Below, one piece after another: positions 9,809 through 27,712 of a DNA stretch of 46,021 nucleotides. The DNA is from Vicinamibacteria bacterium (GTDB lineage: Bacteria; Acidobacteriota; Vicinamibacteria; Fen-336), in the NCBI GenBank assembly GCA_035570235.1, contig DATMML010000025.1, positions 1 through 46,021 on the forward strand, read 5' to 3'. The position numbers and the translations under genes are program-made. A model generated the notes under the pieces. That model was not told where the DNA came from. It ran no database searches and saw only the letters and a program-made list of their open reading frames with translations. How positions within the stretch are numbered: the first letter of the stretch is position 1; every line of letters starts with the position of its first letter.

Positions 9809-10092
9809 CCTTAATGTTCTGAGTGTACCGGAGCGATCGTCCACGCGCGATCCAACGGATTGGATGCTAGGTGGCGCGCTGAGCGTCACCGAGGAGCTCG
9901 CGCGTCACTATGGCCCCGAAGACAACATCGGCATGACCGACCCAGGTAGGGGGGATTTTGGGAGGTCGAGGCCGTCCTGTCCGGCTTCCGCCCGCTTGAC
10001 CCCATCGCGATGTGCGCCTTACGCTTCCGTCAAGGCCTAAGCCGGACGGGGCCGCGCCCGCCCAACCAGGCTTCCCTCATCGGGGAGAAGCG

Positions 10093-12843
10093 ATGGCAAT
10101 CGACTGGCGTGGGGGATCGCACGAGGAGTCGATCAACGACCTGATCGTCCGGAAGAAGTATGCGCGGGCCATCGAGCTGCTGAGGCTTCACCTCCAGAGG
10201 CGGGGGCGGAGCCCGGTGGTGAGGCTGCAGCTTGCCGACGCCTTGGTGATGGCGGGTAGAGGTGGGGAAGCGGTGCCGATCTTCCTCGGGCTCGCGGATG
10301 AGTTCGCCGCCGACGGCTTCATGGCGAAGGCCGTGGCGGCCCTCAAGCGAGTCGAGAAGATCGAGCCCGGTCGGCCCGATGTGGAGGCCCGATTGAAGGG
10401 TCTCACCCGTCGACCGACGGCCCCCACCGAGCGAACGAGTCCGGGCTCGCAGACCGTGACCACATCGCGGGATGCAGAGATTGGGATGGAGGAGGTGGGG
10501 TCCGCGACTTTGGCCCGGCTCCAGGCGAAAGGCCGGCCGGCCATCGAGAAGGTCCCCGACCCCCCTTCGGGAGTAGAAGCCGGTCCGAAAGCGGTTTCCG
10601 AGACCCCCGCCCCGAGGTCGACTCCCGAGGGCGAGGTCCCGGTCTTGGCTTTGGAGGCCCCCCGGGGGGGAACGGAGGACGCACCACCCTTGGGGCCGAT
10701 CGGCGGGGGAGAAGGCGTTCCTGACCAAACGCCGCTCGTCCAGGCCAGCGGAGGCAAGGCTACGTCGGCGCTCACGACTCGCATTCGGGGCGCCTTCCGC
10801 CGCTTCCTTACCTTGCTTCCGGTTCCGGCCGGCGCTGCCACCGGGGTGGAGCCGGAGGCGCCGCCCCTTCCGGAGGGGGCGGCCCCGGTTCCAGACACCC
10901 GCACGATCCCGGCTCCGCAGGGGCCCTCCGAACCCCCCAAGATCGAGACGCGAACAGCCGCCGAGGCCTCCGGCGAGCCTGCCTCCGCGGAAGAGGCGAG
11001 CGGACCGGAGCCCGCTCCCGGAACGAACCTCGAGCCGCCGCAGGGAGTGACGCCGCTGGGAAAGAGGGAGGTGGAGGCGCCCGAGCTTTTCCTTGAGTTG
11101 CCGCCCGCGGAGGCGACCCCGGACGGCGCTTCCGCCGAAGAGGAGCTGCCGGCTCTCGAAATCGAGGTGCCGGAGCCGGAGAGCGGCCTCGTTGGCTTGC
11201 CCGGCGATGCCGAGGACGAAGGCCTTCCCCCGTTGGAGATCGATGAGGACGTCGAGGAGGCCCCTCCCCTTCCTGCCCTGGCCGTCGTCGAGGATCCGCC
11301 CCCGCTCGCGCCCGTGGAAGCATCTCCAATAGTGGACGTCGTGGCCACCCCCTCCGGACTGAGCGTCGGGGAGAAGGTGGGCGGAACCGCTCAAGACGAC
11401 TTCTTCACCATGCCGGAGGAGGTCTTCCAGGACCGGGTCACCGATCTGATAGGGGAGCTTCTCAATCCCGCGGAAGCGGGGACCCCGATGGGGGAGGGCG
11501 CGGACGAGAGTCGCCGCCCCGCCTCGCCTCTCTCGCTCCTGACCGGACCCTTCCTGGAGGACCTTACGGAAGAGGAGCGACTGTCTGTCCTCCAGGGGTT
11601 GAGTCTCCGCGGCGTCGAGGCGGGCGACATCCTCCTCACGGAGGGCGAGGCCGGCCAGAGCCTATTCCTGTTGACCACGGGCGAGGTCAAGGTCTTCGCA
11701 AGGGATCCTACCGGGCACAACGTCCGTATCGGCGCCCTCAAAGAGGGCGATGTCTTCGGGGAGATATCGGTGCTCCAAGGCCGTCCGCGCACGGCCACCA
11801 TCACCGCCGCTGCGCGGGGGGAGCTCCTCGAGCTGGACCAAGAGTCCCTGGCGCGACTGACTCGGGATCATCCTCGGGTCATGGCGAAGATCGACGCCTT
11901 CTCGCGGGAGAGGAGTGATGACCGAGAAGCGGCCGCGGTCCGGGCGGGAGCGCGGCCCCTCGATCGCGCGCAGGCTCACCTGGGTCCCGATCTGGACGTC
12001 CATTTCGGGGGCAAACGACTCGAGCCACGCTTGCGGCTGCGGCTCGCGGACGCCTTCCTCAAGGGGGGGGAGGACCGGCAGGCGGTCCAGATCCTGATCG
12101 CCCTTGCCGATGACTTGGTGCAGAACGACTTCATCGAGAAAGCGGTGGCCCTTCTGAAGAAGGTGGAGGAGATCCAGCGCCGCCGAGCGGCGGCGCCCCC
12201 AGGGGAGGGGGCGCACCCCGCCCTCCCCTCCGGCCGCAGGCCGCCCGCCTCGCCTGAGCTCCCCCCCGGGGTTGGCGACTCCGCGGTCAGCGACCGCTTC
12301 CAGGATTGGCTGCTCGATCTCGTTCGGGCTACGGTCCAGCGCCGGCCGGGCGGGCCGGCGCCGCCGGTGGCGGCTCGGCTCCTGGACACGGCTGCTCTCC
12401 GAGCCTACGGCCGCGGCCTGCTGGCGAGTCGCCTGTTCAAGGGTCTTTCCGAGGAGGAGCTCCTCGCCGTCATCCAGGGACTGCGGCTGCTCACCTTCGA
12501 GCCGGGGGACATTGTCCTTACCGAAGGCGAAGCGGGGGGGAGCGTCTACATCCTGGCTACGGGACAGGTGAAGGTCTTCGTCCGGAACCGCTCGGGACAG
12601 GACGTGGCCATAGACGAGCTCGGTGAGGGAGCGTTCTTCGGGGAAATGGCGGCCATCTCGAGCCGGTCACGGGCCGCCACCGTCACTGCCGCTTCCGCGT
12701 GCACCTTACTTGAGTTGGACGGGCCCGGCCTCCGCTCCATCCTCCAGTCATACCCGGCCGTGCGGGACGTTCTCGAGCGCGTCTTCATAGAGCGGGCGAC
12801 CGACCCTCACGCCGCCTCCGTGCGAAGCCTGGAAGGGCGCTGA
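10093..12843 (+). CDS. Protein with duplicated TPR-like and cyclic-nucleotide-binding domains
   Basis: The product is 916 residues from ATG 10093 with a GGGGAGAAG RBS; an upstream GTG in frame is not supported. Layout: TPR-like helices at about 20-105 (VRLQLADALVMAGRGGEAVPIFLGLADEF, KAVAALKRVEKIEP); a long Pro/Glu-rich, probably disordered linker (about 110-470); cyclic-nucleotide-binding domain 1 (about 484-600, GDVFGEISVLQGRPRTATI); a second TPR-like unit (about 640-695, RLADAFLKGGEDRQAVQILIALADDL); a basic/Pro linker; and domain 2 (about 772-896, GAFFGEMAAISSRSRAATV). Both phosphate-binding cassettes keep the Gly-Glu and the Arg expected to contact a cyclic nucleotide. No HTH, kinase or channel is attached, so it looks like a scaffold or sensor. 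No partner gene is adjacent on the same strand. Confidence 0.85.
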   Translation: MAIDWRGGSHEESINDLIVRKKYARAIELLRLHLQRRGRSPVVRLQLADALVMAGRGGEAVPIFLGLADEFAADGFMAKAVAALKRVEKIEPGRPDVEARLKGLTRRPTAPTERTSPGSQTVTTSRDAEIGMEEVGSATLARLQAKGRPAIEKVPDPPSGVEAGPKAVSETPAPRSTPEGEVPVLALEAPRGGTEDAPPLGPIGGGEGVPDQTPLVQASGGKATSALTTRIRGAFRRFLTLLPVPAGAATGVEPEAPPLPEGAAPVPDTRTIPAPQGPSEPPKIETRTAAEASGEPASAEEASGPEPAPGTNLEPPQGVTPLGKREVEAPELFLELPPAEATPDGASAEEELPALEIEVPEPESGLVGLPGDAEDEGLPPLEIDEDVEEAPPLPALAVVEDPPPLAPVEASPIVDVVATPSGLSVGEKVGGTAQDDFFTMPEEVFQDRVTDLIGELLNPAEAGTPMGEGADESRRPASPLSLLTGPFLEDLTEEERLSVLQGLSLRGVEAGDILLTEGEAGQSLFLLTTGEVKVFARDPTGHNVRIGALKEGDVFGEISVLQGRPRTATITAAARGELLELDQESLARLTRDHPRVMAKIDAFSRERSDDREAAAVRAGARPLDRAQAHLGPDLDVHFGGKRLEPRLRLRLADAFLKGGEDRQAVQILIALADDLVQNDFIEKAVALLKKVEEIQRRRAAAPPGEGAHPALPSGRRPPASPELPPGVGDSAVSDRFQDWLLDLVRATVQRRPGGPAPPVAARLLDTAALRAYGRGLLASRLFKGLSEEELLAVIQGLRLLTFEPGDIVLTEGEAGGSVYILATGQVKVFVRNRSGQDVAIDELGEGAFFGEMAAISSRSRAATVTAASACTLLELDGPGLRSILQSYPAVRDVLERVFIERATDPHAASVRSLEGR

Positions 12844-19624: not shown

Positions 19625-19832
19625 TGGCCCCGCCCTCGGCGATGGCAACGGCGGCCATAACCCTGAGAGCGGACCGCAACTCGAGAAAAGTCGTCGATCA
19701 TCGGGACGGCCAGGCCAGAGGCCTCCCAACCAACAGCGGCTCGAGAGCCGCACCCACACCAGGGGACCGGGGCAGTGGTTGACCGCCCGACCCCGGCCCT
19801 GCCTGAAGCGGGCCGTCGGTGTCGCCCTTACA

Positions 19833-22052
19833 ATGCCGATTGTGGGAAAGAGACAAGGGAGTCGGCGGGAGCGGAACCCTCCTCCGACTCCAAAGGCCAG
19901 GCGGGCGGTTCCGGCCCGCTCCCTCGGCCTGCTCGCGGTGGTCTTAGCGGCCGCCGCCGGGGCTTGGTTTCTGCGGCCGCTCGCGTCTCCCCATCCCAAC
20001 CTCCTTCTGGTTACGATCGACACGCTCCGCGCCGATCACGTGGGAGCGTACGGCTATGGTCTCGCCTCCACCCCCGTTCTGGACGGCCTAGCCCGGCGGG
20101 GAGCGCGCTTCGAGCATGCGGAGAGCGCGGTGCCTCTGACCGGCCCTTCCCACTCCACGATTCTCACCGGTCTCTACCCGCCCGCTCATGGTGTGCGCGA
20201 CAACGTCAACTTCGTGCTCGAGCCCCGGCACCCTACCCTCGCCACCCGTCTCAAGGGGCTGGGCTACGGGACGGCTGCATTCGTGGGCGCCTACCCCGTC
20301 GCGGCCTCCCTCGGGTTCGCACAGGGCTTCGACGAATTCGAGGAGGGCTTTCACGTGAGCCCGGTCCCCGGCCAGGGGGCGGAGCGCCCCGGCAACGAGG
20401 TGGCAGACTCGGTCATAGCATGGCTGGCTAAGAGCGACCGGGCGCGGCCCTTCTTTGTGTGGATGCACCTTTACGACCCCCATGCCCCTTACAAGCCTCC
20501 TTCCCCCTACAGCGAAAGATTCCGAGAGCGGCCCTACGATGGCGAGATCGCCTTCGCCGATGCCCAGATCGGCCGGGTCCTTCAAGCCCTCCTCCCGGGG
20601 GGCCGAGACAAGAACACGCTCGTCATCGCCGTGGCCGACCATGGCGAGTCCCTCGGGGAACACGGCGAAGCCACGCACGCCGTCCTCATCTACGAGGCCA
20701 CGCTGCGCATCCCGCTGATCATGGCGGGGCCGGGGGTCCCCGGGGACCGGGTGGTCCACGAACGGGTGGCCACCGTGGACATCGTCCCCACCGCCATGAG
20801 CCTTCTGGGCTTCCCGCCTCCTCCCGGTCTTGCCGGGCGGGATCTCCGACCCGCCCTGGCCGGGGAACGCCTACACGTGGAGGCCCTCTATGGCGAGAGC
20901 CTGTTCGGACGCTTGAACTGCCGGTGGTCGAGCCTGCGGAGCTGGACCGAGGGCGACTGGAAGCTCATCAACGGAGCCAATCCGGAGCTCTATGACATCG
21001 GGCGCGATCCGGACGAGACGCAGGATCGCGCGGCCGAGGAGCGGGTGCGGGTGGACAGAATGCGACAGGCGCTGGGCGCGGCCCTGGCACGGATGGCACC
21101 GGCTGGGGACAACGCCCATGCGGTGGCGCTGTCCCCGGAGCAGCAGGAACGTCTGCGTAGTCTGGGCTACGCGGGGGGAGGGTCCGGCGGTTCGGGATCC
21201 ATCGACGAGCCGGGGCTGCCCGACCCCCGGACCCGCGTTCATCTCTACGAGCGCCTCCAGGGCCTGCTCGCGTCTCCCCCTTCTGCCGCCCCCCAGGCCG
21301 CCGACGAGGTGGCGGCTCTGGCCGGCCAGGATCCCGGCAATCCCTTCGCCCAGTTCGCCCTCGCCGCCCTTGCCTACCACGCCGGTCAGCTTGCCCGCGC
21401 TGATCACGCTTTCGCGCGCACCCTCGAGCTGGACCCCGACCGGCCGAGCATCCGCCAATACTACGGCCGGCTCTTGCGGGACCGCGAACGGCTGGAGGAG
21501 TCGGAGAAGCAGCATCGGATCGCCCTTGAACAGACGACCGAGGACGACCTCAAGACCCGCATCAGCCTGGCGGAGACGCTGATCGCGTTGAAGAAGACGG
21601 ACGAGGCGGGCCGGCTGCTGGAGGATGTCCTCAAGCGGGCTCCCCGACACCTGGACGCGCTAGGGGCCAAGGGGAGGCTCTTCCTTGCTCTCGGCCGAAG
21701 GGAGGAGGCGATCTCCTATTTGAGGCAGGCCTGCTCGGAGGGAGACGAAGAGTCCTGGCTCGAGCTGGCGAGCGCGTACCTTCTCCTCGGTCAGCCCGAC
21801 AAGGCCCGGGAGGCGGCGGCCCAGACGCTTCGTCAGACCCCGGGACACCCCTGGGCCCAGGTCGTGATCGGTCACTGCCTGATTCTGGAGGGGAGGCGAG
21901 CCGAGGGGCTGGCGGTCCTGAAGCGCGCGCTCATGGCAGGCCCACGCCGACCCCGCGTCTGGCACGACCTCGCTCGGGCCTTCGCCGCCGCCGGGGACGC
22001 AGGTAAGGCTGCGGAATGCGACCGGCGGGCGGCCGCCCTCATCCAGGGCTAG
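19833..22052 (+). CDS. Membrane-anchored sulfatase-like hydrolase with C-terminal TPRs (Thr nucleophile), copy A
   Basis: The product is 739 residues from ATG 19833; a TTG at 19779 would add 18, and neither has a good RBS. A basic N-terminus and one hydrophobic segment (about 30-48) suggest a signal anchor. Residues about 55-440 are an alkaline-phosphatase-superfamily sulfatase domain: LLLVTIDTLRADH (metal ligand Asp63), PLTGPSHST, and VADHGESLGEHGE. At the sulfatase CxPSR position it reads T-G-P-S-H, so Thr103 replaces the Cys that becomes formylglycine. Residues about 450-735 are TPRs (ALEQTTEDD..., GHCLILEGRRAEGLAVLKRAL). Thr is the nucleophile in related phosphotransferases, so a phospho- rather than sulfo-substrate is plausible. 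It is convergent with copy B. Confidence 0.85.
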   Translation: MPIVGKRQGSRRERNPPPTPKARRAVPARSLGLLAVVLAAAAGAWFLRPLASPHPNLLLVTIDTLRADHVGAYGYGLASTPVLDGLARRGARFEHAESAVPLTGPSHSTILTGLYPPAHGVRDNVNFVLEPRHPTLATRLKGLGYGTAAFVGAYPVAASLGFAQGFDEFEEGFHVSPVPGQGAERPGNEVADSVIAWLAKSDRARPFFVWMHLYDPHAPYKPPSPYSERFRERPYDGEIAFADAQIGRVLQALLPGGRDKNTLVIAVADHGESLGEHGEATHAVLIYEATLRIPLIMAGPGVPGDRVVHERVATVDIVPTAMSLLGFPPPPGLAGRDLRPALAGERLHVEALYGESLFGRLNCRWSSLRSWTEGDWKLINGANPELYDIGRDPDETQDRAAEERVRVDRMRQALGAALARMAPAGDNAHAVALSPEQQERLRSLGYAGGGSGGSGSIDEPGLPDPRTRVHLYERLQGLLASPPSAAPQAADEVAALAGQDPGNPFAQFALAALAYHAGQLARADHAFARTLELDPDRPSIRQYYGRLLRDRERLEESEKQHRIALEQTTEDDLKTRISLAETLIALKKTDEAGRLLEDVLKRAPRHLDALGAKGRLFLALGRREEAISYLRQACSEGDEESWLELASAYLLLGQPDKAREAAAQTLRQTPGHPWAQVVIGHCLILEGRRAEGLAVLKRALMAGPRRPRVWHDLARAFAAAGDAGKAAECDRRAAALIQG

Positions 22053-22088: not shown

Positions 22089-24263
22089 TCAGAAGCGAAA
22101 ACGCGGATCAGAGGGAAAACGCGCCTGGGCTCGACCCGCAAAAAGCCGCGCTCCCTCCACGTCGCCCAGGACGCTCAGGGCGTGCACCACCGTCCAGTAG
22201 GTTTCAGCGCTCGGCGGCGACTCCGCGGTGACGAGGCTAGCCAGGACGGCCCGGGCTTCGTCGTCACGTCTCTGCGAGCGGTAGAGTGTGGCGAGGCCCA
22301 CCCGCCCTTCGCGGGTGGCGGGGAGGATCTTGATCTCGGTCCGAAACTCCTGCTCCGCCTCGGCTTCCTTGCCGAGACGAGCCAGGCAGTCTCCGATATT
22401 CGCGTGCAGGCTGCGCACGACCGTCCCTTTTTGCCGCTTCTGGATCTCCTCCGCTTTTCGAAAGGAGCCCAGGGCCTCGTCATAATGTCCTGCCTTCTGG
22501 GCCAGCACCCCCAGGATGAAGTGACTCATCAGCCGTTGGGGGTCCGCGGCCAGGCTCTGGCGCGCGAGGGCCCCGGCCCCGGCCGGGTCGCCGCGGTCCA
22601 TCATGAGCTGGGCGGCCACCTCGTAGCCTTCCCCCGGGTCCCGTTGTGCGGCCAGCTCCGCGTGCTTCGACGCCAGAGCCAGGTTGCGCTCGAGGCCGTA
22701 GATCTTGGCCAGCATGAGATGGATCTGCGGGTTCAGGGAATCGATGGCCAGGCCTTCGCGCAAGGCGGCCAGCCCTTCCTGCGTGCGGCCCGCCCGTACC
22801 AGGGTGAATCCCAGCATCTCCCAGGCGTCGAGCATCCGTGGGTTCCCCTCCAGGACGCGACGGAATAGCGCGATCGCCTCCTGGTCCTTGCCGGCCTGCC
22901 GCAAAGAAAGGGCGCGCTTGAGGTCTTCGTGAGCCGCGATCCGGTCCTTGGGGTCGGGTAGTCTAGCCGCGGGTGTGGCGACCGCGCTTCCGCCCAGGTA
23001 GCCCAGGGCCTGCAGCTTCTCCCGGACCTCGGCCGTGGCCTCCTCCGGAGCCGTGACGTCACCGATCCGGTGCTCCAGCCATTGGGCCAGGGTGCTTCCC
23101 CTCGACGCCTGCGAATCGACGAGGTTGTGCTTCTCGCCGGGGTCGGTCTCGAGATCGAACAGCTCGGGGTGGGGGGCCCGGATGTACCGATGCCGGCCCT
23201 CGGTCACCGCGTAGAGGTCGCTCCACCCAAGGTGGTAGCGGGGGTAAAGCGTCTCCGAGTAAACCGGTCGCCCCTCCGCCGCCCCCCGCCGGAGGGCCGG
23301 ACGCAGGGACACCCCGTCCAGGCCGTCGGTGGGCAGGCCGGCGAGGTCGAGGAGGGTAGCCGCCAGGTCCACCCCCCCCACGGTGCCCGCGATCCGCGTC
23401 CCGCCCTGGGTGGCCCCCGGCAGCCGCAGAATCATGGGGACGTGGAGGGCTTCACGATAGAGAAGCAAGCCATGCTCGTCCTCACCGTGGTCCTTGAGTC
23501 CTTCGCCGTGATCGGAGACCACGGCTAGAACGGCCTGCTGCAGCCGTCCCTGCCCTTGCAGGCGATCCAGGAACCGACCGACCAGCTCGTCGGCGTAGGC
23601 CACGGCTCCGTCGTAGGGTTGGGCCAGGCCGCGGTAGCGGTCGGGTGGAGCGCAGGGTGCGTGGGGCTCGTACAAGTGGAGGAAGGCAAAGAAACGGCGG
23701 CTGCCCTGGCTCTCGATCCAGCGCGCCAACGCCTCCACCGCGATCGCCCCGTCACGCCGCAGGTCGGCCAAGGATTCGGGAGCCCCCTCGACCTCCAAGG
23801 CGTCCTCGTAAAAGTCAAAGCCTTGGGCGATGCCCGTCGGCGAGCGGAGAACAAAGGCCGAGACCGCCGCCCCCGTGCTCCACCCCGCGGCCTTGAAACG
23901 GGCGGCCAGGGTCCGGTGCGTTGGGCGTAACGTGAAGCCAAGGTTGTCGCGGACGCCGTGGTGAGGGGGGAGCAGGCCGGTAAATAGGGAGGCGTGAGAG
24001 GGAAGGGTGAGGGGACAGTGGCTGTAGGCGGCGTCAAATACCACTGACTCCCGCCCCAGACCCTCCAGGCGGGGCGTGCTCCCCTGTCGGTAGCCGTAGA
24101 GCGAAAGGTGGTCGGCCCGGAGGGTGTCGATGGAAACGAGGACAACGGGAGCGTTCGGGTAAGGGCCGACGGCAGACGAGGTGCAGCCCGCGACAGCACT
24201 CGTCAGGAGGGCGAGGGCGGGAACGAAACGGCGGGAGGCGGGGGCTCCCCGAACTCGGGACAC
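22089..24263 (-). CDS. Lipoprotein sulfatase-like hydrolase with C-terminal TPRs (Thr nucleophile), copy B
   Basis: The product is 724 residues from GTG 24263, with TAGGA eight bases upstream. It opens with a lipoprotein signal (lipobox AVAGC, Cys27). The sulfatase-like domain (about 35-420) carries VVLVSIDTLRADH, PLTLPSHAS with Thr86 at the usual Cys/Ser nucleophile position, and VVSDHGEGLKDHGEDEH. The C-terminal ~280 residues are TPRs (DQEAIALFRRVLEGNPRMLDAWEMLGFTLV and further repeats). It has the same plan as copy A and ends 36 bases from it, tail to tail. Copy A is a signal-anchor protein and copy B a lipoprotein, so the two may sit on different membrane faces. The substrate is unknown; absence of Cys argues against a formylglycine sulfatase. 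Confidence 0.85.
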   Translation of the reverse strand: MSRVRGAPASRRFVPALALLTSAVAGCTSSAVGPYPNAPVVLVSIDTLRADHLSLYGYRQGSTPRLEGLGRESVVFDAAYSHCPLTLPSHASLFTGLLPPHHGVRDNLGFTLRPTHRTLAARFKAAGWSTGAAVSAFVLRSPTGIAQGFDFYEDALEVEGAPESLADLRRDGAIAVEALARWIESQGSRRFFAFLHLYEPHAPCAPPDRYRGLAQPYDGAVAYADELVGRFLDRLQGQGRLQQAVLAVVSDHGEGLKDHGEDEHGLLLYREALHVPMILRLPGATQGGTRIAGTVGGVDLAATLLDLAGLPTDGLDGVSLRPALRRGAAEGRPVYSETLYPRYHLGWSDLYAVTEGRHRYIRAPHPELFDLETDPGEKHNLVDSQASRGSTLAQWLEHRIGDVTAPEEATAEVREKLQALGYLGGSAVATPAARLPDPKDRIAAHEDLKRALSLRQAGKDQEAIALFRRVLEGNPRMLDAWEMLGFTLVRAGRTQEGLAALREGLAIDSLNPQIHLMLAKIYGLERNLALASKHAELAAQRDPGEGYEVAAQLMMDRGDPAGAGALARQSLAADPQRLMSHFILGVLAQKAGHYDEALGSFRKAEEIQKRQKGTVVRSLHANIGDCLARLGKEAEAEQEFRTEIKILPATREGRVGLATLYRSQRRDDEARAVLASLVTAESPPSAETYWTVVHALSVLGDVEGARLFAGRAQARFPSDPRFRF

Positions 24264-24426: not shown

Positions 24427-26457
24427 TCAGCGGCCAGGCCCGCTCCCAGCGTCAGGCGCGACGGGCAGCAAGATCTCGACGGTTGTGCCCGCGTTGAGCT
24501 GGCTCCGGACCCGGATCTCTCCGCCGTGGTCTTCGACAATCTGACGGGCAATGGCAAGACCCAGACCCGTCCCCTTGGCTTTGGTCGTGTAGTACGGCTC
24601 GAAGATCCGCTCGACGTCCTCCATCCCCAGCCCCTCGTCTGCCACCGAGAGCGTGATGAAGGCGGAGCCATCGGGATGTGCGGTGGCGAGGGTCAGGGCT
24701 CCGCCCCGACCCTCCATAGCCTCGATGGCGTTGTTGACTACGTTGAGCAGGACCCTCTTGAGTTGCTCGCGATCCGCCTCCACCGCGGGAAGGCGCGGCG
24801 CCAAGTGCCGGTGGATGACGACGCCCGCGATCGTCGCTTGCTCGAAGGGCCGGAGCACGTCCTCGACGAGCAGGTTGAGGTCCTCCCTTCGCTGCTCCCT
24901 CCTGGGAAGCCTGCTGAATCGGCTGAACTCCGAGATCAGGCCCTTGAGGTCCTGAACCGCGGTCAAGATCATCTCGATGGCGGAGGGGAAAAGCTCGTCG
25001 AACTTTTTCCGGTCGGCGGCATAAGCGGAGCGCAGGGTCTGGGCCGCGAGGCCGACGGGGGTCAGCGGATTTTTTATCTCGTGGATCACCCGCTCTACGG
25101 CCTCTTTCCAGGCTTCAAGTCTCTGACTGGCAAGGAGTTGTGTGAGATCATCGAAGACCACGACCGTCCCCGCACTGGTCCCGCCAACCTCCGGCAACGC
25201 TGAGGCCACGACGGACAGCGTCCGCCGGCCCGGCGCCAACCGCAGGTGCACTTGGCCTTTCTTGACCGCGGCCTCGCCCCGGCGGACCGCGTCCACGAGG
25301 GCCAAGAGCCCTTCGTCGCGAGGGGAGAGGACCTCCGCCAGGGCGTGGCCCTCGGCGGCGGCTCGGGGAATGGACAAGATTTCGCAAGCCCGGTCATTGA
25401 ATGTGGTGATTCTGCCCCCGCCGTCGAGTGACACCACGCCCGTTGCCACATGCGAGATAACCGTCTCCAGGTGATTCTTCAAATCCCGGAGCTTCTGCTC
25501 CGAAGCTAGGAGGGCTTGCGTGCGCTCCTGGACCATTCCCTCGAGGTTTCGGCTGTAGCCCTCGATGTTCTGCTTCGAGATCGAGAGGTCGGTCACCATC
25601 GTGTTGAAGGCTTCCGCCATGCTTCCGATCTCGTCGCGGGAACCGGCGACAAGCCGCATTTCAAGCTGACCCTTGCTGGCCTGGCTCATAGCGAGCTGTA
25701 CTCGGTGAAGGGGGGCGATCACTATCCGGGAGAGCAGGAAATTGAGTAGAAGGAGCAGAACGAGAAGCGTGGTCCCGACCAGGCCCCAGAAGAGAGTGCT
25801 GGTGCGAGATTCGCTTTGCCGGTCGGCGGCGAGTGAAAACAGGACGTCGAGACGTCCGAAGGAATCACCCCCCGCCTGGAGCTCAGCTTGGTGCCTCAGC
25901 ACGATCTCCCCTTTCCAGGGCATCTCCTGAAAAGCCTCCCTCGGTCGCAATGGGGTGTCGAGGGGCGGGAGCTTGGAGCTCACAACGGCCAGATCGGCCA
26001 TAAGCGGGCGACCGCCGGCCCCCACCACCGTCCCGCGTCCGTTCTTCCCTACCAACAAGATGGTGTCGTTCGGAACCTGCCCCTTGCCGTTTGGGTCCTG
26101 ACCCAGCAGGTCCTGTTGAACACGCCAATCGCCCGTGGCGGCCAGGCCGATGGCTCCGCTCTGGATCTGTACCCAGAGGATCTCGGGCTGGCGCGCGAAA
26201 TCCGCCATGTCCGCGGCCAGGGAGTGCTGGTTCTCACTGAGAACGTCGTAGATCAAATCCCGCGTGTACTTCTCCCGCAGGACGGACAGAAGCTTTTGGT
26301 CACGACTCATTAGGCGGGCGCGTTGCTGGCGCTGGAAGGGCACGAATACCAACAGAAAGACAATCATGATGCCGCTGACGGCGGCCGTGAGCGTCAAGGC
26401 GACCTTCCAGTTCAGGCTGAGGTCTCGCAGGCCCGTCGCTGGCCGATCCGTGCTCAC
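24427..26457 (-). CDS. NtrY-like membrane sensor histidine kinase (HAMP-PAS-HisKA-HATPase)
   Basis: The product is about 676 residues from GTG 26457. I chose this start because the upstream gene ends at 26459, leaving one base between them; longer frames would run into that gene. Two membrane helices (about 17-40 and 218-245) flank a ~180-residue periplasmic region. Then come a HAMP linker (about 245-297), a coiled coil, a PAS domain (VISHVATGVVSLDGGGRITTFNDRACEIL), the dimerisation/phospho-acceptor helix with His459 (IHEIKNPLTP), and an ATPase domain with NVVNNAIEAMEG, DEGLGM and GTGLGLAIARQIVEDHGG. All kinase boxes look intact. No response regulator lies in the window. It forms a two-gene operon with the binding protein upstream. 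Confidence 0.92.
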   Translation of the reverse strand: MSTDRPATGLRDLSLNWKVALTLTAAVSGIMIVFLLVFVPFQRQQRARLMSRDQKLLSVLREKYTRDLIYDVLSENQHSLAADMADFARQPEILWVQIQSGAIGLAATGDWRVQQDLLGQDPNGKGQVPNDTILLVGKNGRGTVVGAGGRPLMADLAVVSSKLPPLDTPLRPREAFQEMPWKGEIVLRHQAELQAGGDSFGRLDVLFSLAADRQSESRTSTLFWGLVGTTLLVLLLLLNFLLSRIVIAPLHRVQLAMSQASKGQLEMRLVAGSRDEIGSMAEAFNTMVTDLSISKQNIEGYSRNLEGMVQERTQALLASEQKLRDLKNHLETVISHVATGVVSLDGGGRITTFNDRACEILSIPRAAAEGHALAEVLSPRDEGLLALVDAVRRGEAAVKKGQVHLRLAPGRRTLSVVASALPEVGGTSAGTVVVFDDLTQLLASQRLEAWKEAVERVIHEIKNPLTPVGLAAQTLRSAYAADRKKFDELFPSAIEMILTAVQDLKGLISEFSRFSRLPRREQRREDLNLLVEDVLRPFEQATIAGVVIHRHLAPRLPAVEADREQLKRVLLNVVNNAIEAMEGRGGALTLATAHPDGSAFITLSVADEGLGMEDVERIFEPYYTTKAKGTGLGLAIARQIVEDHGGEIRVRSQLNAGTTVEILLPVAPDAGSGPGR

Positions 26458-26458
26458 C

Positions 26459-27712
26459 TTAGTGGGCCCCCAGCCACTCGTAGGGCCGAACTTCGTACTC
26501 GTGGACTCCCGGGACGACTTCCGAGATCGCAACGCCTCGGGAGACGTCCCCGTGTTCATCGAATCGTATCGATCCCGTCTTCCCGATGAAGGCCACCCTG
26601 GACAGGGCGTCACGGAGACGCACCCTCGTCACGGCAAGGCCCGAGCGAAGCTGATCATCGGTGAGAGGACCAAGCGCCGAGAGCGCGGCGGCGATGGCCT
26701 GAACCGCGTCGTAGGCCAACGGAGCTCGGCAGCCATCAGCCTCCTCGCCATAGCGGGCACGGTAGGCTTCCAGAAAGGCGGGGAGTGGAAAACAGTGATT
26801 GACGTAGTACGCGGGGGTCGCCGGCCCACCCCTCTTGAAGAGGAGCTGGCTTGACCAGGCGTCGCCTCCCAACAGGGTCGCCCGTATCCCTGACCGCCGG
26901 GCCTGCATGGCCACCAGGGTCGCATCCGTGAAGGACCCCGGTACGAACAAGGCGTCGGCTCCGAAGGCCTCTACCTCTCGCAGCTGACTTCCAAAATCGA
27001 TCTCCAGGGGCAAGTACGAGAACTCCGCCGTCACCCTGGAGGTCTTGGAGTCTTGGAAGTGCTCAATGAAGCTCTTGGCGAGCTTGGCGCTGTAGGTTCG
27101 GCCCACCTCGTACATCACCGCAACCCGAGTCGCGCGCAGACGCTCCTTCACAAACTCGGCCAGCAAGCGACCGAGAACAACATCTGAATTGCAGACCCTG
27201 AACACGAAGCGATGGCTCGCCCCCGTGACGGGGTCCCAGGTGAGGTCTTGAGCCGTCGAAACATTGGAGACCTGAACCAGGCGGTCGGCCTCCGCCACCT
27301 CCGCCATGGCCTTCGACAGCGAGCTGGCATTGGAGCCGACCATCGCCAAGGCCCCCGAACGCGACACCGCGTCTTCCGCCGCGAAGCGGGCATCCAGGAA
27401 ATAGCTGCCCGTTCGGTACTCGAGGAGCTTGAGGCGCCTACCGCGCATCCCGCCCCGGCGGTTAAGGTCGTCCACGGCCATCCTGGCGCCCCTCTGAGAC
27501 TGGATTCCCGACAGCGCAAACCGCCCGAAAGTCGGAAAAATCGACGCGATGGGAAGAGTTCCATCGAAGCGGACATCGGATGGTGCCTCGACCAGAGGTT
27601 GGACGGTGTCTCTGGAATCGAGAGCTTTCGACGGGGGGAGGACGTCCCGAGAACACGAGCTTGCGATCGGAAGGGCCAGGATGAAGGCGATCCTTGGAAG
27701 ATCTCGGGTCAT
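26459..27712 (-). CDS. ABC-type (LivK-like) periplasmic ligand-binding lipoprotein
   Basis: The 417-residue product starts at ATG 27712 with a weak AGGGA about 12 bases upstream. A lipoprotein-type signal ends at ASSC (Cys20). From residue 50 it is a Peripla_BP_6 protein: LPIASIFPTFGRFALSGIQSQRGARMAVDDLNRRGGMRGRRLKLLEYR, then MVGSNASSLSKAMAEVAEADRLVQVSN, RVAVMYEVGRTYSAKLAKSF and the C-terminal lobe (APLAYDAVQAIAAALSAL). This family binds branched-chain amino acids, amides, urea or aromatic acids for ABC import. No permease or ATPase gene accompanies it. The next gene, one base away, is a sensor kinase, so it probably presents a ligand to that kinase. The ligand is unknown. Confidence 0.88.
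   Translation of the reverse strand: MTRDLPRIAFILALPIASSCSRDVLPPSKALDSRDTVQPLVEAPSDVRFDGTLPIASIFPTFGRFALSGIQSQRGARMAVDDLNRRGGMRGRRLKLLEYRTGSYFLDARFAAEDAVSRSGALAMVGSNASSLSKAMAEVAEADRLVQVSNVSTAQDLTWDPVTGASHRFVFRVCNSDVVLGRLLAEFVKERLRATRVAVMYEVGRTYSAKLAKSFIEHFQDSKTSRVTAEFSYLPLEIDFGSQLREVEAFGADALFVPGSFTDATLVAMQARRSGIRATLLGGDAWSSQLLFKRGGPATPAYYVNHCFPLPAFLEAYRARYGEEADGCRAPLAYDAVQAIAAALSALGPLTDDQLRSGLAVTRVRLRDALSRVAFIGKTGSIRFDEHGDVSRGVAISEVVPGVHEYEVRPYEWLGAH

Follow-up and report, generated by a model that had tools for sequence, protein, structure and literature searches.

Complex structures exist for three couples in which a binding protein acts on a sensor kinase, namely XylFII-LytS, TorT-TorS, and LuxP-LuxQ (PMC6321045). 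The two genes adjoin or lie close to each other in 10 of the 11 binding-protein/kinase couples that have been characterized, and the P. aeruginosa kinases AgtS and AruS do not interact with their neighboring binding proteins (PMC11113362). AioX comes from an ABC-transporter binding-protein family that was recruited for signaling, and AioR acts at RpoN promoters (PMC5908839). Our literature search returned no paper that connects a kinase with a binding protein of the LivK type, though such a search does not prove that none exist.

We analyzed a window of 46,021 nucleotides from a Vicinamibacteria bacterium that contains a gene for a LivK-type solute-binding lipoprotein (417 aa; 26459-27712, minus strand) followed by a gene for a sensor histidine kinase (676 aa; 24427-26457, minus strand). 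The initial annotation had placed a single base between these genes. Reading the sequence bore this out: the binding-protein gene ends with TAA at 26459, a G occupies position 26458, and the kinase begins with GTG at 26457. The mechanical ORF for the kinase runs further upstream to 26613. Orthologous kinases begin at the position equivalent to the GTG, just ahead of a conserved RDLSLxGKV motif, which supports the shorter gene.

The annotation had also reported that no permease, ATPase, or response regulator lies near the pair. phmmer searches with LivH, LivM, LivG, LivF, and receiver domains agreed, returning no match in the 46-kb window or in the 10.7-20 kb surrounding the binding-protein orthologues. 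Pfam analysis of 20 other window genes identified no transporter of the Liv class and no receiver domain. With no transporter or receiver gene nearby, the binding protein cannot be explained simply as a component of an ABC operon, and we rejected a transport operon near the pair on the basis of the empty Liv searches in the window and the orthologous loci. The nearest genes on one flank encode two sulfatase/TPR proteins, and those on the opposite flank encode proteins that match no Pfam family. The sulfatase domain is fused to TPR repeats in each of two convergent genes (19779-22052, plus strand; 22089-24263, minus strand). A separate window gene (10012-12843, plus strand) codes for a protein of 943 aa that contains TPR repeats and has two matches to cyclic-nucleotide-binding domains.

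The description of the first protein as a LivK-like lipoprotein held up. It matches Peripla_BP_6 with 122.5 bits against a cut-off of 31.7 (E=4e-35), and its AF2 model (pLDDT 81) aligns with LivK/LivJ-type structures over about 330-355 residues with Z scores of 33-37. The signal peptide (27653-27712, minus strand) has a lipobox-like ASSC end at Cys20. Orthologues carry a Cys at the same place, in the sequences AAAC, LGC, FAC, and FSSC, and this conservation supports assignment as a lipoprotein.

The kinase has the HAMP-PAS architecture and the outside domain of roughly 180 residues that had been predicted, the latter lying between hydrophobic stretches (roughly residues 18-40 and 220-241) as judged from sequence and model. 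Pfam analysis placed HAMP at 25585-25737 (PF00672, E=2e-11), a cytoplasmic PAS domain at 25135-25473 (PF08448/PF00989), HisKA at 24907-25092 (PF00512), and HATPase_c at 24457-24774 (PF02518, E=2e-23), all on the minus strand. The HEIKNPLTP H-box containing His459 is kept in orthologues, and the N, G1, F, and G2 boxes of the catalytic domain are intact. The label "NtrY-like" fits the HAMP-PAS-HisKA-HATPase core and its HEIKNPLTP motif, which are shared with NtrY. Among the kinases of this genome that we read, the top-scoring relative (212 bits) is the NtrY on contig C73. The label does not fit the rest of the protein. The sensor differs, and NtrY_N (PF19312) was absent from the kinase in our Pfam analysis but present in the NtrY on C73. 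We therefore rejected the name NtrY for a kinase with no NtrY_N domain and no adjoining NtrX.

We found that the adjacency of the two genes is conserved. A search of 60 relatives, with the binding protein as query, identified orthologues of 53-56% identity in four genomes of the same family (G004, G006, G012, and G001, the last cut by a contig end). The kinase gene lies directly downstream in all four, overlapping the binding-protein gene by 4-11 nt. A scan of GTDB species genomes found the pair in three same-family records and in a MAG labeled as Planctomycetota (OFTM205). The two genes are side by side in the window as well as in each of the five related loci. The pair is thus a conserved unit.

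We compared the distributions of the two proteins with profiles. A profile of the kinase sensor and transmembrane region matched 5 of 193 genomes from the class (G000, G001, G004, G006, and G012) with E values below 1e-100, and all five belong to one family. A sixth match (G005) was marginal at 5e-4 and covered part of the model only. Among 396 genomes from the phylum, the sole match was the window's own genome (0 of 395 others). The binding-protein profile identified the same genomes, four with full-length copies plus G001, whose shortened copy did not reach the threshold used. Orthologues scored at least 726 bits, and the next homologue scored 170 bits. If the genomes were independent, the same 5 of 193 would be matched by chance with a probability of about 5e-10, or 1 in C(193,5), a figure that overstates the evidence because the carriers are one family and their co-occurrence represents few independent events.

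The single-family distribution of the class carriers would fit genes that are chance neighbors, held together only by shared ancestry. We consider this explanation very improbable. The flanking genes vary between genera while the pair stays coupled, and the carriers are only about 50% identical. The OFTM205 copy (55% GC) is divergent, with its genes about 25-40 nt apart and other neighbors. Among the genomes and loci we examined, the orthologous binding protein was never found without this kinase and never adjoined permease genes. This exclusive side-by-side occurrence suggests that the pair is a small, dedicated chemical sensor, and a handful of bacteria are already known to have sensors of this kind.

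We modeled the N-terminal region of the kinase to examine its extracytoplasmic sensor domain (about residues 41-217; 25807-26337, minus strand). The model (pLDDT 71, pTM 0.54) indicates, with moderate confidence, a single Cache/PDC-type domain between long helices, giving the kinase an extracytoplasmic domain that could receive a binding protein. It resembles WalK (4ywz; Z 10.1, rmsd 2.9, 128 residues), LuxQ (3c38; Z 8.7, rmsd 3.5, 145 residues), and LuxQ from the LuxP complex (2hj9; Z 8.2, rmsd 3.7, 124 residues), with modest Z values that indicate the fold class only. Further matches include CitA and the dCache protein DctB. It is common for a single Cache domain to bind a small ligand on its own, and such matches would fit a kinase that senses its ligand directly, with the lipoprotein playing a separate role such as scavenger or buffer of the same ligand. 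The exclusive co-occurrence and gene coupling speak for more than this loose role, and we regard direct sensing by the kinase as quite unlikely.

When we looked at the next-best homologues in the class and phylum, most of their genes immediately preceded LivH/LivM, indicating that the binding-protein family is of transport stock. These permease-linked relatives are distant, with 30-36% identity, and in a tree of 40 sequences the paired proteins group as a clade with full support and a long stem. Two other arrangements of LivK-type genes were observed. In G390 (L100, 1462-3981), a kinase gene precedes a LivK-type gene, LivH, and LivM, placing a kinase inside a Liv operon. In family f3 (L043, 8176-10794; L019; L032), one or two tandem LivK-type genes occur with no Liv permease or kinase nearby.

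We asked whether the binding protein might still be a transport receptor, lending its ligand to a distant LivHMGF permease, while the kinase is merely co-transcribed and makes no contact with it. Its transport descent fits this idea, as do the Liv operons found elsewhere in the genome (at least two, on contigs C8 and C42) and the precedent of AgtS and AruS as neighbors that do not interact. However, the C8 and C42 operons have their own, distant binding proteins. AgtS and AruS are also not tight two-gene units, whereas the present pair has no transporter and shows exclusive co-occurrence. Orthologues of the binding protein keep this kinase and avoid permeases, and about 20 positions that are fixed in all or nearly all of the permease-linked relatives (n=18) differ in every paired protein. 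A transport receptor beside an unconnected kinase is, in our assessment, unlikely.

The ligand site of the paired proteins retains some transport-receptor features and has lost others. Ser79, Thr102, Tyr150, and Glu226 of LBP align with Ser130, Thr153, Tyr207, and Asp284 of the binding protein. We take Glu226 of LBP to be a ligand-anchoring residue; it is replaced by Asp in the paired protein and in 18 of 18 permease-linked relatives. All four aligned residues are kept both in the paired proteins and in these 18 relatives. By comparison with the relatives, the aromatic walls of the pocket are gone from the paired proteins: Phe68 of the relatives (at the LBP Trp18 position) is Ser, and Tyr260 (at the LBP Tyr202 position) is Ser or Phe. 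A new motif, EYRTGSY, occupies residues 98-104 and is common to the paired proteins, its longer form EYRTGSYxxDA being invariant. The ligand roles of LivJ Ser79, Thr102, Tyr150, Tyr202, and Tyr18 come from docking (PMC6983066). Because the four anchoring residues are kept, the ligand is probably amino-acid-like, with a different side chain.

We compared the pair to the described systems. It shares its fold and four ligand-anchoring residues with LivK/LivJ but has no nearby permease partner and has lost the aromatic walls along with other transport-fixed positions. LuxQ is a hybrid kinase with two PDC domains. The LuxP-LuxQ system of Vibrio (PDB 2HJ9) likewise combines a type I periplasmic binding protein with a Cache/PDC-domain histidine kinase, but the present pair has one Cache domain, no receiver, and a lipoprotein as its binding component, which is of the LivK type rather than the sugar type represented by LuxP. 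XylFII-LytS and TorT-TorS involve other binding-protein families and other sensor domains, and their regulators are encoded with them. They resemble the present pair in having a binding protein dedicated to the kinase, which in those systems contacts the sensor domain (PMC6321045). AioX-AioS-AioR also turned an ABC-transporter binding-protein family to signaling; it differs in that AioX is PhnD-like and the cluster contains a response regulator.

Kinases of this genome with the same type of core adjoin NtrC-type regulators (on C73 and C62), which suggests by analogy that the partner of the paired kinase is of the NtrC/NtrX type. We read 17 of the 24 sigma-54 activators in the genome and searched across the family for two orphans, whose genes have no kinase gene beside them. 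An orphan NtrC-type regulator on C115 is present in 13 of 14 family genomes, whether or not they carry the pair. Another on C15 is present in 12 of 14 and is missing from the carriers G004 and G001. By this phylogenetic profiling, neither tracks the pair.

We consider it likely that the two genes are a coupled unit for a two-protein chemical sensor, an SBP/histidine-kinase couple like LuxPQ, TorTS, and XylFII-LytS. The initial annotation had proposed a dedicated small-molecule sensing unit in which the binding protein delivers a ligand to the kinase. Such a unit is the best explanation because the pair is conserved and the orthologous binding protein never occurs with permease genes; ligand delivery is a plausible addition to it. 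We infer the contact between the proteins, the ligand class, the regulator, and the direction of control as follows. The lipoprotein would be anchored in a membrane facing the periplasm, where it would close around a small molecule; an amino acid or an amino-acid-like compound is the most likely ligand. In one of its states it would dock on the kinase's single Cache domain. The resulting change would pass across the membrane through the HAMP and PAS domains and reach the HisKA/HATPase core, where it would affect how His459 is autophosphorylated and, in turn, phosphorylation of a response regulator that is encoded elsewhere and is probably of the NtrC/NtrX type.

A second family of the same class, f10, contains LivK-type genes that are each followed by a kinase gene. 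These loci occur in G030 (twice), G040, and G042 (L045, 2345-5036, plus strand; L046, 769-3138, minus strand; L050, 4306-7038, minus strand; L021, 1-1348, minus strand). Pfam scans of two f10 kinases showed both to be dCache-HAMP-HisKA-HATPase-REC hybrids, and one of them has an extra PAS domain. The f10 binding proteins fall in a separate clade of our tree, subject to a long-branch warning, so LivK-type proteins may have been recruited to kinases more than once in the class. We tentatively suggest that a LivK-type transport receptor could have become a full-time signaling receptor by keeping its anchors for the amino-acid backbone, losing the aromatic side-chain pocket, and gaining EYRTGSYxxDA. 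Such a receptor might inform a Cache kinase of an unusual signal that resembles an amino acid, and the f10 combination of a LivK-type protein with a dCache hybrid kinase might be a further instance of the same change.

Sensors in which a binding protein acts on a kinase are well established, and the present pair adds a member to this kind. Most sensor kinases lack a known signal, and part of the reason is that some receive theirs only by way of a binding protein. In a minimal pair that lacks a transporter, the usual doubt about the purpose of the binding protein disappears, and two proteins with a predicted ligand class make a manageable system for testing how transport receptors turn into sensors. 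The pair comes from a soil phylum in which such pairs appear to be little studied.
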